Positions 26,424-32,369 of a stretch of 64,000 nucleotides of DNA are shown here, in pieces. The notes beneath the pieces are model-generated. The model was not told where the DNA came from. It saw only the letters and a list, made by a program, of their open reading frames with translations, and searched no databases. Position 1 is the first letter of the stretch, and each line of letters begins with the position of its first letter. The stretch is from Polychytrium aggregatum (lineage: Eukaryota; Chytridiomycota; Chytridiomycetes; Polychytriales): the NCBI RefSeq assembly GCF_025602895.1, contig NW_026516243.1, positions 186,001 through 250,000 on the forward strand, given 5' to 3'. The position numbers and the translations under genes are program-made.

Positions 26424-28115
26424 TCAACGATGCAGTCCATTCTGGAGTAGTGCCAACGAACATGCTTCGCTCCGGATCAACTGCAGCGACAACGGATAGC
26501 CCATACCGAGGATTCGGATGCTCAGGGCAAACTCCTCAATGTTCTTCAGCGCCTTGATCACCTTCTCGTCGGCGGTGGAGCCGTCAAAGTCGATGTACTG
26601 CAGCCAGAGTGCGCCGCGAGACCAACAGGGTTCAGTTGCTGCATCCCCGAGTGCCCTGTGACAGCAATTCAACAGCATCGACAGCGCAACAGCATCACCG
26701 CCAGAGCAGCAGAGACAATCTCGGCACACTCACCAGCACGTACTCCCAGGGCTTGGCAAGCTTGATGGAACGGGTCGAAGGGCGAGACTCGACCTTGCAG
26801 ATGCTGTTGGCCGAGTCTCTCCGTCAGCCCACAGGCTCAATCTCACACCGATGGACACTGTCCATGTCCCCATCGCAGGCGATCCCGCACTTACTTGATA
26901 TCGCGCAGTGCAAAACAGGACAGCGTCTTGAAGATCGCACCGCACTGATTCTTCAGCACAATCGAAATGCTTGTTCGTGGATCCATGTGACGCTCTGGTA
27001 TGACGCTTGCACGGGCAATAACTACATAGCGCATGATGGTGTTGTCGTCGTCCTCGATGCCTTCGGTGATCACTTCGAGTCCATAGATAGCGGCTGCCCT
27101 GGCGCTGGCAATTGCAGCGCTGTCGAGGGGGAGGGATGCAGTTTAGGCAAGGGGCCACCAGCAGCGACAGCATCTATGATAGCCTCTGGCGATGAAGGGG
27201 GGACAGATCGCCATCGTTCTGCCATTGCAGCCACTTCAACAAATCAATACCTGTGGAGACTGCCAGAGCTGGCAACCCAGGCAGCGCTGCCGGCCGTGTC
27301 CATCTCCTGGCTGACTGCGACCCGCTGCTGCAGCTTGCTTATGAAGCGGCGACACTGGTCGATGGCATATGGATGCGACTTGATCTCGGTGATGGTCTCA
27401 AGAGAGGCACCAGGCACACCAACAAGACTGGACGGAATGAATGCAAGGGAGACCCACAAGTCGGGCGACCATCCCAGTCAGTGTGGATCTATCAAGCTGA
27501 TCGGCCATCCCGGCGACACAGCCGGTCGGTAAGCTGCTCCACAGCTGTGTCGCTCCAGCAGCGACATCGATATGCAGCTTATCCTTCCTCAGCCGGCATC
27601 CTGACTGGCTCCAACGCACACCGCTCGTCCGATAGCCCGACGCCCTCATGCCTTACCAGTGCTTCTCGTGATAGCAATATTCTCCAACAATGTACACGGA
27701 ATACTGGTGCAGCAGATCATAGTTGTAGTGGAACGTCCCTGTGCTGGAGTTTTCTATGGGAACGACGCCGTAGGTCACAGCCTCGCTCTGGACTGCGTCA
27801 AACACCTGGAGACAGCGGGGGGGGGAAATCAAAGCAAATGCAAGAGCGGTTAGCGAGCCTGCACCGCTGTCAGGGTGAATGGATCCGCAGCATCGGCCCT
27901 GTCGGCGACAGCAAGTCGATATACGATGGCTATGGTGTGCAGAAACAGGGCATCTGCAGGTGGTGCTGACGCACATCGGCAAAGGAAGGGTAGCCACAGG
28001 TCTCAAAGTTGGACGAGCGCAGCGTCGGGTCGGTGGAGAAGAGCTCTTCGACGGCACCCTCGGAATAGGCGCCTTTCTGGCCCTGAAATGCAATGCGGAT
28101 AGGTTGGGCGGCCAT
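26424..28115 (-). CDS. PHA2: Prephenate dehydratase with ACT domain
   Basis: Converts prephenate to phenylpyruvate in phenylalanine biosynthesis; cytosolic. The start at 28115 gives IRIAFQGQKGAYSEGAVEEL, the N-terminal substrate-binding block. Later exons give FDAVQSEAVTYGVVPIENSS followed by TGTFHYNYDLL (the conserved PIENS-TG motif), GVSLETITEIKSHPYAIDQC, DTAGSAAWVA, AAAIYGLEV with DDDNTIMRYVVIAR, and the ACT domain: TSISIVLKNQCGAIFKTLSC, then LTKVESRP (allosteric Phe-binding block), IKLAKPWEYVL and LQYIDFDGSTAD, ending with ALKNIEEFALSIRILG and a short tail. About six introns. All catalytic and regulatory blocks are present, so it should be active and feedback-regulated by phenylalanine. 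Confidence 0.92.
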
Positions 28116-28928
28116 GCTGGATCGACTGAGATGTCCGGGAGGAGACGGAGGAGGAGGAAACAGGACCGGCTGCGTTCCTGATCGGCACCAGAGGGGGCTG
28201 GTGGCGGCAGCACGTGGAGAATGCAGGGGTCCTGGAGTGAATCATGATGGCGCTGTCAAGGCGCTGGGAGGTGATGCGTGAGATGCGATGCGCGAGATGG
28301 ATCGCCAGTTTGATGCCGAACATGACCGGACTGGACAGACTCGGGGACAAGAGTGGGCAAGAGTGGGCAGCAGGTGCGACTCATGACCAGACATTGGGAG
28401 CATCACTCGGAGCGTATCCCACAACTGTGTCGGGCCATGCAAAATATGGATATCACTATCAATTTTTTCCGGCACCTCGCGGCTGCTCATCTCGAATATG
28501 AATACACGCTGTAGACCAAGATGCAGCAAAAGTTGGAATCCGGCCATGGTCGGTTGACGGCATTTGGTATTACCTTGAGCCGATTGACGGTGGTGGTGGG
28601 CAATTGGTGTGGAGGAATGACCAATTGTATCATTGTTGGAAGCTCCACTCCGATTGCGGACAAGAACCACCACCGTCTGAATCTCTCTGGTTGGAAACCT
28701 AGTCAAGCGTGGCTGTGTGTCAGCGAGATGGCATGATCGTTTGGCTATCAGGCAAGACTCACCTTGACAAGATGTCTTCCCACGACTGATTGAGCGAGCG
28801 ATGCGTTTCTGGATCTGAATCAAGGACGCCACTGCACAGTATCACTGCCAGCCCAAAATGCGCTGGTTTTGAGGAGATTCCTTCTTCCCCAAGGGCAGAA
28901 CCAGCCATCGTCGCTATTTTCTCGCCAG
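28116..28928. other. Flank between PHA2 and the Fanzor gene
   Basis: Holds the PHA2 promoter and the 5' flank of the Fanzor gene. No gene is supported. I looked for an end repeat matching the 31.5-32.3 kb side and found none convincing by eye, so the left end of the mobile unit is unplaced. Confidence 0.4.
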
Positions 28929-31525
28929 ATGACTCCCAAGAGAAAGACACCCCCCGACCCCGACCCGGGATCACCCAATGACTCTCATGTGGCCAAGAAA
29001 CCAGCCATCAAAGCATGCCCCTCCTGTGGATTGACCAACCACGTCAGACCCTTCACCAAGAAGTGCACAGCCAGAGTCGACAGCAGCCCTGCCTCTGGCT
29101 CTGCCTCGGTCGCTGAAATGGTCAGCCAAGCACCCAAGGTCCCTGTATGTGCCACGTGCGGGGAAGAGGGTCATGCCAGAAGCAACAGCTCGTTGTGTAC
29201 CAAGAAGAACCCACTCTGGAGCTCTACCTTGCCTGGCTGTGGCCCAAACGAGTATGCCAAGGCCGAGTACTCCACCGTCAAGTGCACCCTCGACGCCATC
29301 ATCAAGAACGATGCCTTGCACGACAAGATCGAGGAGACTGTCCGGGCCATGACACACGTGCAGTACGAAGCATCTCGTCTCCTGGAGCTGCATCTCAGGC
29401 GGTGCTTGGACGAGGGCATCACTCTCCCCACCGTGTCGTCGAGTGAACCCGCGTTTGTTCGAAAGTGCTTCAATATGGTGCAGACAGGAACAGTGAGTGT
29501 CAGGACAAACACCCCAGAAGATGACAGGCACATCCTCGACACATATGGCATGTATCGAAGTACATGGGGAAAGTCGTGTATCCTGCCTCCAGTGTCCCTC
29601 CCAAAGGGTACTGGGTCACAGGTCCTTGGTTTGGCTGTCAAGACCTATGCTGTCAACTGCGAGACCCACGTTCTCGATCGGTATTGGTCCCTTCTACGCC
29701 GATACTGCAATTTGGTCCTGGTTGCTCCCAAGGGTGTGAAACGGCGCACACACGTCGATGAGTGCATGAAGCTGATGGAGAACCCCCTCTCCAAGACACT
29801 CCTCGTTGATCTGAGAAAATCCTTCGCCCACCATGCCGACCAGTTGTATGAGTTTCGGTACGAAAGCCACCAGGACCTGTATCGAGTTGTATCGAAACTG
29901 GCCAGTGAAGTCTCTCGGCTGACCCACCTGAAGGAGGCCCTCTTCATGGTGGTCTTTCAGAAGATGATCATTCCCAGGCTCGCGAGGGTGACCGATGTTC
30001 TAAAAGGAGAGCGTGGGCGACTGAACGAGGAAATGTGTCGCGCCATCGAACGTAGGCAGTCGGATCAATACAACGCACTCCAGACCCAGCACGAGGAGGT
30101 GTGCAAGCAGATCGCTGTGAACATGAAACGGATCAAGCGCCTCACCGACCGGCTTGCCCAGACCAAGAAGCGCCTCAACATCCCTCGAGCACAGTGCACA
30201 TTGGTCCCGCTCTGCGATGCCCGAGCCAAGTATGTCAAGCTCGACACCACAGCACTGTGGGAGATCCTTGGATACCAGACTGGCACTGGACTCAAGTGGG
30301 GCGACCTGAAGACCAAGGTCAACGACACCACAAAGCAAGAGACCTTCTGGCAGACCAACTTCAAGCTGGATCCGAGACTCTTTGGTGCCAGGGAGAAGGG
30401 GAAGCAGCTCTTTGGCTGCGAGATCACCACCGATGGAGTCGGGTGCTCGATCACCACGCTCAGATACAAGATCCTGGAGAAGAAGGATCCTGATGCCAAA
30501 CCAAAATCCACGGACAAGGACGACAAGACACCCAAGCTCACCCCCGAGAAGAAGATCCAGACCAGAGTCGGTCCCATTGACGACTCTCGGACCACATGGA
30601 TCGGGATCGACCCTGGTGTGGGATCGATCTTCACCGCTGTCATTCGGGCACCCGGTCAACCATCCATCCAGGAGCAAGACGGTGTCAAGGTGACCAAGGC
30701 ACAGCGTGCCAACGAGAAGATCGTGTCGTTCTCCAACAAGGAGTACCAGCATCGAACTGGCACCACCCAAGCGACCAAGTGGATCCAGAGCACCCACAGA
30801 TCCTTGGTCTGCAGGAATGGATGAGCACCACACCAAGTCCCAAGATCCCTGGGTTGGCTCCCTTCCTGCAATACATTCGCCATGTGTTCGATGGAGACAT
30901 GCTGGACAAGCAGCTGTACTTCAGCCTGACCCGGCGACGGCGATTCAAGCGACTCGATCTCCACAGCAAGCGACAGCGCACCGTCCACGAGATGTGCAAG
31001 CAAGTCATTGACCAGGCACCAAAGGAGACCGAAGTGGTGATTGCCTTTGGGAATGTTTCGTGGAAACAGGGGAAGGGATACGCATCCAGTCCCAGGAGAC
31101 TCAGGTTTGCCAAGTACTTTGAGCAGTTCCACCACCACCAGAGACGACCACCAGACCGACCCGTCTCCAAGATCCATGTGTGCTCGGTGAACGAGTTCAA
31201 CACATCCCAGGTGTGCTCACATTGTCGGGAAGCCAAGCGACTCGAGAAGGTCGAGCATCTTGATATCGAGAAACCACACTTTGTCCGGAGCTGTGCAAGC
31301 TGCCATACGCTGTGGGATCGAGACATCAATGCCTCAAGGAACATGATCTCGGTATGCCAGTCGATCGTCGCCACAGGGGATCGACCGAGTGTATTCAAGA
31401 CTGTGCTTCCCAAACCAACCAAAAACAAAGAGATTGCCAACGAAGACAGGAGTGCAATGCCATGGCCTACCCGCTGGGCCTACAAGTCAGTCAGTGGGCT
31501 TCAGACATCTGAAGCCAGAAAGTGA
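28929..31525 (+). CDS. Fanzor (eukaryotic TnpB-like RNA-guided nuclease), frameshifted in RuvC domain
   Basis: The first ATG is 28929 (MTPKRKTPPDPDPGS, with a PKRK nuclear-import-like motif). Two tandem zinc knuckles follow, CPSCGLTNHVRPFTKKC and CATCGEEGHARSNSSLC, both C-x2-C-x4-H-x7-C. A long helical, basic region (about residues 100-540) precedes the RuvC-I block WIGIDPGVGSIFTAVI, with its catalytic Asp at codon 561 (30609). Frame 1 stops at 30822-30824. Homologous sequence continues without a gap in the -1 frame from about 30798 (ILGLQEWMSTTPSPKIPGLA) through VVIAFGNVSW, NEFNTSQVCSHC, RSCASCHTLW and DRDINASRNM to the stop at 31523-31525. The Asp, then about 197 residues, then TS-x-x, a C4 zinc finger and RD match the published Fanzor signature. 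Intronless, unlike all its neighbours. It is either a recent pseudogene or a read error in a functional gene. Confidence 0.93.
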
Positions 31526-31674
31526 CTGTCCGTTTCTTTCTGGATAGACTGTAAGTATCTCGCACTGTTGTGCATTTTGACAGTGGATGCCGGGTCGCCC
31601 ATATTCTGGGCAGTCCACTTCGGGGTTGCCATCCCTCTTGGGATGGTCGATGAGAGGTGTTTGACTCCCTTGCA

Positions 31675-31676
<2 letters not shown>
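31526..31676 (+). ncRNA. Candidate Fanzor guide-RNA scaffold / element right end
   Basis: Directly downstream of the Fanzor stop. Nested inverted repeats: AGTGGA (31582-31587) pairs with TCCACT (31614-31619) and encloses GCCCA (31597-31601) pairing with TGGGC (31607-31611). A separate perfect 7-bp hairpin follows, CCATCCC-TCTT-GGGATGG (31629-31646). TnpB and Fanzor guide RNAs are known to be encoded at the 3' end of the nuclease gene and to be highly structured. The assignment here rests only on position and predicted pairing. Confidence 0.4.

Positions 31677-31739
<63 letters not shown>
31677..31739. repeat. (GT)31 microsatellite
   Basis: Uninterrupted GT dinucleotide run of about 62 bp, immediately after the structured tail of the Fanzor locus. 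It is the longest perfect dinucleotide repeat in the window. Confidence 0.97.
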
Positions 31740-31740
<1 letters not shown>

Positions 31741-32369
31741 CGGCGAGAGGCTTCTCGCCTTCCCTCGGGGGTCTCTCGCCAGAGACTGCTCTTCTCGCCG
31801 ACCGAGGTGGCTCCGAGAGCGCGTTTTTTCGTTCTCGCTCATTTTTTTAACATGAAATTTTTTCATAGTGTCAGGTAGAAAAATGCACCGATAGACACAG
31901 TGATAGCACTGACTAACGCCCAGTGTGGCGACTGTGAAGCAGCCGATGGCATGTCCAGAGCTGCCCATAGCATCATGCGAGCGCATCAGACGGCTCGTCT
32001 CTTGGACAGTGGTATCGCGTCGTCCTTGAGAAGACGATTCTGTTGAGGAGATGAGCAGGTGAGACTGTGGAGCGTCACGATCATCGCACGCTCGGGCTCT
32101 TGTGGCTCGGGTCTGTGCATGAGTGCCGATGCTGAACACACCTTTTCGCTTGCCGGAATGGATCTTGGCGGCAGAAGCGAGGCGCTGGATCGGATCGGTG
32201 TGTCGGAGAACCTTTGGCGCACATACACATGCGTTAGCTCACTCGTCAGGCGCATCGAATGAGGCGCCTTCGGGAAGAATCCAAGCTGGATTCTCAGAGC
32301 CTAAAAAAGGTCCACGCTGGGTTGGGTTGCGTTGGGTTGGGCGGGGGTTTGGGCAAATCAGCCTCTTGC
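31740..32369. other. Intergenic region between Fanzor locus and Elongin A gene
   Basis: No gene supported. A T-rich segment (about 31840-31870) is followed by ordinary-composition sequence. It contains the 3' flank of the Elongin A gene (minus strand). Confidence 0.4.

Follow-up and report, generated by a model that had tools for sequence, protein, structure and literature searches.

Transposons of the CACTA/EnSpm (CMC) type end in a CACTA terminus, are flanked by a 3-bp target-site duplication and, in their autonomous members, encode a tnp2 transposase. Fanzor1 nucleases are known from DNA transposons of the Mariner, Helitron, IS4-like, Sola and MuDr types (PMC3627910), with hAT and Crypton elements also named as hosts (PMC10711439). 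The closest described relative of the locus reported here is SPu-1 of Spizellomyces punctatus, the element of the Fanzor1 protein SpuFz1 (PMC10432273, PMC3627910), which is ~2.1 kb long, with 30-33-bp terminal inverted repeats (TIRs) and putative TA duplications. TnpB of IS200/IS605 elements acts as a gene drive in plasmids (PMC11870625), and the role of Fanzors for their host transposons in living eukaryotes was left open in the discussion of PMC10432273. Here, we analysed a stretch of 64,000 nucleotides from the chytrid Polychytrium aggregatum (contig NW_026516243.1; C346:186001-250000 of the 64.7-Mb assembly in 418 contigs), hereafter called the window, to which all plain coordinates refer. 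It contains a Fanzor open reading frame (ORF) that is almost certainly carried by a multicopy, non-autonomous DNA transposon of the CACTA type, whose copies bear footprints suggestive of RNA-guided cutting and copying.

Like SPu-1, the window element carries a single Fanzor ORF between TIRs, has no internal transposase and is present in many copies, including 'ghost' elements that lack the ORF but retain the right end; in both, the short duplication appears to form part of the target-adjacent motif (TAM), which in SPu-1 comprises CA plus TA. It differs from SPu-1 in its length of 3.4 kb, its CACTA-type ends and its 3-bp duplications, and its family encodes an 860-amino-acid (aa) protein with two N-terminal zinc-knuckle-like motifs and without a sequence match to a solved Fanzor. 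With CACTA/EnSpm elements it shares the CACTA terminus and the 3-bp duplication, and the same genome also contains a tnp2 element of which one end matches; unlike the latter, it carries a Fanzor instead of a transposase, and its left end diverges after 6 nt. As in the Mariner, Helitron, IS4-like, Sola, MuDr, hAT and Crypton cases, a nuclease has been captured by a DNA transposon. CACTA elements are not among the Fanzor1 hosts named in the excerpts of PMC3627910 and PMC10711439, although Jiang et al. (2023) might list them. A literature search, likewise covering parts of the sources, returned no link between Fanzor and CACTA, and Fanzor and EnSpm occurred together only in an alga, as separate repeats. 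As for TnpB of IS200/IS605 (PMC11870625), the proposed guide would record the insertion site and empty copies would be cut; unlike the plasmid system, this one concerns eukaryotic diploid chromosomes and is proposed from sequence footprints.

The element and its flanks comprise the following features.

28454..31870, + strand: whole Fanzor element, 3,417 bp, delimited by similarity edges and aligned termini
28454..28470, + strand: left terminal inverted repeat, CACTATCAATTTTTTCC, from aligned termini
31854..31870, - strand: right terminal inverted repeat, read inwards, CACTATGAAAAAATTTC, from aligned termini
28451..28453, + strand: left flank triplet TAT, unequal to the right triplet TCA on both haplotypes, from aligned flanks
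31871..31873, + strand: right flank triplet TCA, from aligned flanks

In 17 of 18 other copies with different flanks, the similarity edges fell at 28448-28454 or inside and at 31870-31875, and the termini thus delimited, CACTAT ... ATAGTG, are the terminal CACTA inverted repeats typical of the CACTA (EnSpm/CMC) type. The 18-nt left end was found at 143 places in the genome (≤2 mismatches) and the 22-nt right end at 120, counts that take in alleles and fragments, whereas the reversed controls gave 0 each. In a listing of 100 left ends and as many right ends, 61 pairs were recognised, corresponding to elements of 278-665 bp (3), 1.55-1.64 kb (28), 2.6 kb (1), 3.33-3.43 kb (17) and 3.70-3.77 kb (12). 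The 60 copies from this list with both flanks read represent 45 distinct sites, with sites merged when their 14-bp left flanks differed at two bases or fewer. An exact 3-bp duplication, as is characteristic of CACTA elements, was present at 31 of these 45 sites (chance expectation 1 in 64), most commonly of the triplet TCA (8 sites). A DNA search of the organism's own genome, in which scoring covered 40 of the 1,340 first-look candidates and whose counts are therefore lower bounds, recovered the window copy, a copy on contig C10 with common flanks and many copies alike in an inner block only. No tnp2 transposase lies inside the 3.4-kb window element, which is consequently non-autonomous at most. 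With its TIRs and 3-bp duplications, and no serine recombinase ORF within the 3.4 kb, it does not conform to an IS607-type Fanzor2 element. A host-gene reading was discarded in view of the many copies with defined ends.

The original prediction had described a near-complete chromosomal Fanzor gene occupying a single, intronless ORF at 28929-31525. Codon checks placed GIDPGVGS, TSQV, two CxxC pairs and DRDINASRN on the + strand where predicted, and the Fanzor assignment held; the claim of a single frame did not, since the first frame stops at 30824, and what had been taken for a chromosomal gene is a frame-broken copy of the multicopy non-autonomous CACTA-type transposon with its right-end RNA candidate. 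Relative to other copies, the frame changes at ~30775-30815. The predicted distance of ~197 residues between the RuvC-I Asp and TSQV therefore crosses the frame change in the window copy but is real in intact relatives (D561-T759). The absence of introns was borne out, none being needed and 28 of 53 scored same-genome copies being open in a single frame through RD, as was the large N-terminal part, which precedes the RuvC-I Asp by ~560 residues in relatives. The ORF features are as follows.

28929..30824, + strand: Fanzor N-terminal frame (N-terminal region, REC/WED-like part, RuvC-I), ending in a stop
29016..29066, + strand: first N-terminal zinc-knuckle-like motif, CPSCGLTNHVRPFTKKC, from sequence, no Pfam match
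29148..29198, + strand: second N-terminal zinc-knuckle-like motif, CATCGEEGHARSNSSLC, from sequence, no Pfam match
30609..30611, + strand: RuvC-I Asp codon (GIDPG)
30809..31525, + strand: Fanzor C-terminal frame (RuvC-II, zinc finger, RuvC-III), open stop-to-stop at 30581-31525, PF07282
31193..31195, + strand: alternative RuvC-II Glu codon (NEFNTSQVC), at a place that fits the Ealt of PMC10711439
31214..31303, + strand: C4 zinc finger (CSHC ... CASC), by Pfam and codon check
31322..31324, + strand: RuvC-III Asp codon (RD)

The C-terminal frame matched the Pfam family PF07282 (Cas12f1-like TNB) with 40.2 bits (E 3.9e-10; curated cut-off 26.3), whereas a Pfam search with the N-terminal 631 aa gave no match. 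The allele of the window insertion on contig C10 (L010) contains one open frame of 866 aa from Met and may produce a working nuclease; the window copy itself probably produces none.

As a likely helper, tnp2-bearing CACTA elements were identified by 29 genome matches to PF02992. The element around one of these matches is 5,690 bp long, with the ends CACTATGAAAAAAAAG and CTATTTTTTCATCGTG and the duplication ACG/ACG, its termini being of the type CACTATGAAAAAA; one frame of a tnp2 element weakly matches DUF4218, below the cut-off. The 24-nt tnp2 left end occurs exactly 22 times, in 21 cases at 2,290-2,291 bp from a PF02992 match, and its first 13 nt are identical to those of the Fanzor right end. 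From this likeness we infer that a tnp2-type transposase mobilises the Fanzor element in trans. No autonomous element with the Fanzor 18-nt left end was seen, the occurrences at L031, L039, L047 and L049 being solo end fragments beside host sequence; a search for the Plavaka transposase (PF18759) returned no match, but neither did its controls, which leaves its absence unproven. At three tnp2 right ends (C369, C375 and C388; L182-L184), the left-flank triplet is repeated one base off the right end, as if these ends were one base longer. Two tnp2 elements lie ~31 bp apart in opposite orientation (L067; C201:119948 / C201:131322), and both sites are empty at C216.

Beyond the ORF, three features were assigned at the right end.

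31677..31738, + strand: GT microsatellite between the ORF and the right-end RNA candidate
31740..31870, + strand: candidate omega-RNA scaffold, 131 nt, ending at the last base of the element, from conservation and fold
31874..31888, + strand: predicted guide, host DNA past the right triplet, 14-15 nt if modelled on SpuFz1 (PMC10432273, PMC10711439)

The right end probably encodes an omega-RNA, i.e. a guide-RNA scaffold. Mean pairwise divergence among 19 copies was 2.1% in the last 126 bp (31745-31870) compared with 7.8% in the ORF region, with the window allele L010 omitted from this analysis and from the linkage analysis below, and L020 additionally from the latter. The 100-bp window 31754-31853 ranked third lowest in divergence among 35, the two lower ones (29054-29153 and 30654-30753) both lying in the ORF. 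The predicted fold had a z score of -2.78, with 0 of 200 shuffled sequences as stable, and across 60 right ends paired columns varied in 0.8% and unpaired columns in 2.0% of cases. The right end is retained in the short copies (278-665 bp) and in the 28 deletion copies (1.55-1.64 kb), which have no open nuclease, and its core 26-mer occurs at 149 places in the genome (≤3 mismatches). Searching the right end against Rfam yielded no known family, the two matches obtained being at chance level and far below their gathering scores. In the right-end element RNAs (reRNAs) of insect-virus Fanzor1 systems, the scaffold includes the TIR and the duplication (PMC10711439, PMC10432273); by analogy with these and SpuFz1, the guide is predicted to begin after the right duplication.

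The left flank carries a TAM-like motif. At the 31 sites with exact duplications, information relative to background at positions -7 to -1 peaked at -3 (1.27 bits), followed by -4 (0.75 bits), whereas the flank right of the duplication remained at background level; this asymmetry had p 0.0002, no value as large being obtained in 5,000 random site flips. G was absent from -4 at all 31 exact sites (p 1e-5). For comparison, 20 of the 21 tnp2 sites were used, one of two identical flanks being dropped: T or C occupied -3 at 40 of 45 Fanzor but only 10 of 20 tnp2 sites (p 0.0012), and position -6 also differed (p 0.024). A TAM of approximately [C/A][T/C][C/A][A/G/T] in the left flank, duplication included, together with the guide as drawn above, is the likely interpretation of these sequences. 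Since the last base of the element is G, a filled site has G at -4, which would provide a simple means of self-sparing.

Within the element, alleles of the same insertion diverge. Between the window insertion and its counterpart on C10 there were 111 mismatches in the element but 0 in 2,564 bp of flank, and the L017/L020 pair showed 76 mismatches in 3,368 bp of element compared with 5 in 2,598 bp of flank. Both variants were also seen in other copies at 96 of the 111 window-pair differences (9% expected by chance) and at 65 of the 76 L017/L020 differences, so that the allele differences reflect exchanges rather than mutations. Linkage between 321 two-state sites in 18 copies decayed from an r2 of 0.61 within 10 bp to 0.13 at 25-50 bp; past 200 bp it was 0.06, as calculated for independent sites (0.0588), and the four-gamete rule was broken by ~80% of distant site pairs. 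Structural differences were found as well: at one site (C79/C166), a 3,361-bp element is paired with a 1,627-bp deletion copy whose join is as in other deletion copies, at another (C268/C413) the spacing is 3,393 versus ~1,540 bp, and the C109/C402 alleles differ by a 63-bp in-frame segment. The tnp2 control gave 0 four-gamete violations (14 copies, 23 sites). In a second Fanzor family, the rule was broken in most site pairs >25 bp apart (5 copies, 12 sites). This family (L195-L199, e.g. C20:72463-73062), of which 5 copies were read, has frames of ~809 aa with near-identical TNB scores.

A second occurrence of the same flanks was found for 15 of the 45 Fanzor sites. Joined flanks of 10 Fanzor sites were searched without retrieving a contiguous empty allele; two of these (L018, L024) had been picked for a known filled second allele, and the remaining unbiased set of 8 contained 0 empty alleles, 3 filled second alleles, 1 contig break and 4 sites with no second place. 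The same search with 11 of the 21 tnp2 sites (7 without exact duplication and 3 without a right end read were left out) returned an empty allele at 9 and is thus capable of detecting empty sites. The contrast between 0 of 8 and 9 of 11 is significant (p 0.0007; 0.005 among sites with a second place).

These footprints are best accounted for, with a probability of roughly 0.6, by RNA-guided cutting of empty sites, copying from filled ones and template switching between copies. The element would be moved in trans by a tnp2-type CACTA transposase, and an RNA transcribed through its right end would take its guide from the host DNA that follows the right duplication, such that each insertion would direct the nuclease to its own unoccupied site. 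The TAM would be supplied by the motif of the left flank, duplication included, and the filled site, with the last base of the element as G at -4, would be spared. Once the nuclease had cut the empty site, on either the sister chromosome or the homologue, repair would copy the element back into it, and switches of template between the numerous copies would shuffle the element interiors. That such cut-and-copy events are the actual cause of both the mosaic and the fixation has about even odds, with insertion age and assembly error as the main rivals.

Several observations weigh against this proposal. Exact duplications are missing at 14 of the 45 sites, the window insertion included, and G occupies -4 at 2 of the 45. 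The preference for C or A at -4 is not significantly stronger at Fanzor than at tnp2 sites (39 of 45 versus 14 of 20, p 0.16), nor do -5 and -7 differ significantly. Two-sided covariation is absent from the right-end fold (60 right ends, 39 distinct), with 12 one-sided and 6 broken cells. The Fanzor left end matches the tnp2 end over 6 nt only. The C375/C132 alleles do not differ at all over 601 bp of element, which shows that conversion has not occurred in every pair, and the tnp2 mosaicism control comprises only 23 sites in three sequence types. The tnp2 copies, moreover, look younger, which alone could account for their empty alleles.

This last point bears on the rival that survives best, in which the Fanzor is a passenger: an old CACTA family would have been fixed by descent, the motif would reflect the preference of its own transposase, and the mosaic would result from ordinary ectopic gene conversion without a role for the nuclease. 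Consistent with it, the haplotype flanks are near-identical (0/2,564 and 5/2,598 mismatches), so that insertions predating the haplotype split are shared, copies of each tnp2 type show little or no difference and hence appear younger, and the mover of the Fanzor element has only been inferred to be tnp2. We nevertheless regard it as rather unlikely, because the motif is confined to the left, whereas a transposase preference should not depend on the orientation of the element, the ORF is under purifying selection, and four-gamete violations recur in the second Fanzor family, though among 5 copies only.

Alternatively, assembly or polishing errors might have mixed reads of different copies and produced a false mosaic, with the element, its ends and the Fanzor remaining real. 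The decay of linkage within 25-50 bp, a distance shorter than a short read, and the allelic contigs with identical flanks but unlike interiors would fit such an artefact. It is unlikely, however, given that the tnp2 repeats, which are 2% divergent and harder to separate, keep perfect types, that the C375/C132 pair is identical throughout the 601 bp, that the structural differences between alleles (C79/C166, C268/C413, C109/C402) go beyond what polishing can make, and that 28 ORFs remain open.

A Fanzor family that no longer moves or cuts, its footprints recording past activity, could be suspected from the broken frame of the window copy and from the state of the 53 scored copies (alleles counted apart), 19 of which contain internal stops and 6 more of which end early (4 before RD, 2 cut at residue 677). 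The other 28 are open through RD, and the ratio of non-synonymous to synonymous substitution (dN/dS) averaged 0.35 (range 0.24-0.50) over 91 pairs of the 14 ORFs of ≥700 aa kept from 20 elements, variable C-terminal tails included. The ORFs are accordingly shown to be under purifying selection, and the copies derive from functional sources. As alleles of one insertion also differ inside the element between identical flanks, exchange has been recent, and a dead relic is quite improbable.

Membership in another RuvC nuclease family is virtually excluded: the N-terminal 631 aa lack a Pfam family and no solved Fanzor chain was matched, either directly or in a family-profile sequence search of solved structures, but PF07282 scored above the cut-off in the window copy and in 11 of 11 aligned relatives, the DPG and Ealt fingerprint is present, and the NCBIfam models guided_TnpB and IS200_TnpB matched the family weakly, far below the cut-off. 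In the checks suggested by the original prediction, profile searches gave no non-TnpB RuvC family a better score, and further copies with common ends were found in the genome. The published Fanzor signature, D-X(125,275)-[TS][TS]XX-C4 zinc finger-X(5,50)-RD (Bao and Jurka; PMC3627910), is present in intact relatives, the window copy having its D in another frame than the rest; the DPG motif and the alternative glutamate, which precedes the zinc finger by six residues, described as the molecular fingerprint of Fanzors (PMC10711439), are present as well. The 11 aligned ORFs have a mean column identity of 82% and retain IDPG, NExNTS with its glutamate (E756) and RD in every case, with the F of NEF kept in at least 90%. 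The large N-terminus and the non-IS607 element suggest a Fanzor1 rather than a Fanzor2.

Within the family, copies at C63, C24:72590, C5, C157:638184 and C96 are only 66-71% identical to the query in the N-terminal 70 residues and 76-86% in the remainder, as if the N-terminal module of this subfamily had been exchanged separately. Elements L024-L028 contain a segment of ~367 bp with a TATA-like string upstream of the ORF, at element position 446; it may be a promoter that the 3.4-kb copies, the window copy included, lack. It was rejected as an intron, as there is no clean GT-AG match to copies without it, and so was the 63-bp segment in C402 (L194), which preserves the reading frame and is flanked by short GCAC repeats. 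L031 and L047, probably alleles on two contigs, each have a solitary left end of 36 bp just past a carbamoyl-phosphate-synthase-like gene, a label judged from the translation. In the window itself, the start of a prephenate dehydratase-like gene (27930-28116, - strand), matching PF00800 over 61 aa with 20.3 bits, below the cut-off of 25.2, lies ~340 bp outside the element's left end and points away from it.

In another protein of the genome, a TnpB/Fanzor2-like portion that matches guided_TnpB with 109.8 bits (cut-off 100) is fused to an IS607 transposase N-terminus covering NF033518 positions 5-73 of 187.

L002:1486-2916, - strand: 477-aa IS607-TnpB/Fanzor2-like frame, also in L003 and C379 (L006, L007)

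On two contigs, copies of this frame face opposite ways at a distance of ~5 kb. The TNB domain was located at 663 first-look places in the 64.7-Mb assembly, and the 150 scored were all above the cut-off; the load of TnpB-like proteins in this genome is unusual.

As far as the searched literature shows, CACTA would be an added type of transposon that has captured a Fanzor. A single genome here offers two haplotypes, many natural guides, ORF-less copies, a matched Fanzor-free transposon as a control, and a prediction for both the TAM and self-exclusion, so that retention or homing by a Fanzor becomes testable. It is tentatively proposed that the Fanzor may constitute a natural RNA-guided homing drive in a diploid genome, with template switching keeping a transposon family in linkage equilibrium. 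If this were true, selection would act on the freely recombining segments of a nuclease present in many copies.

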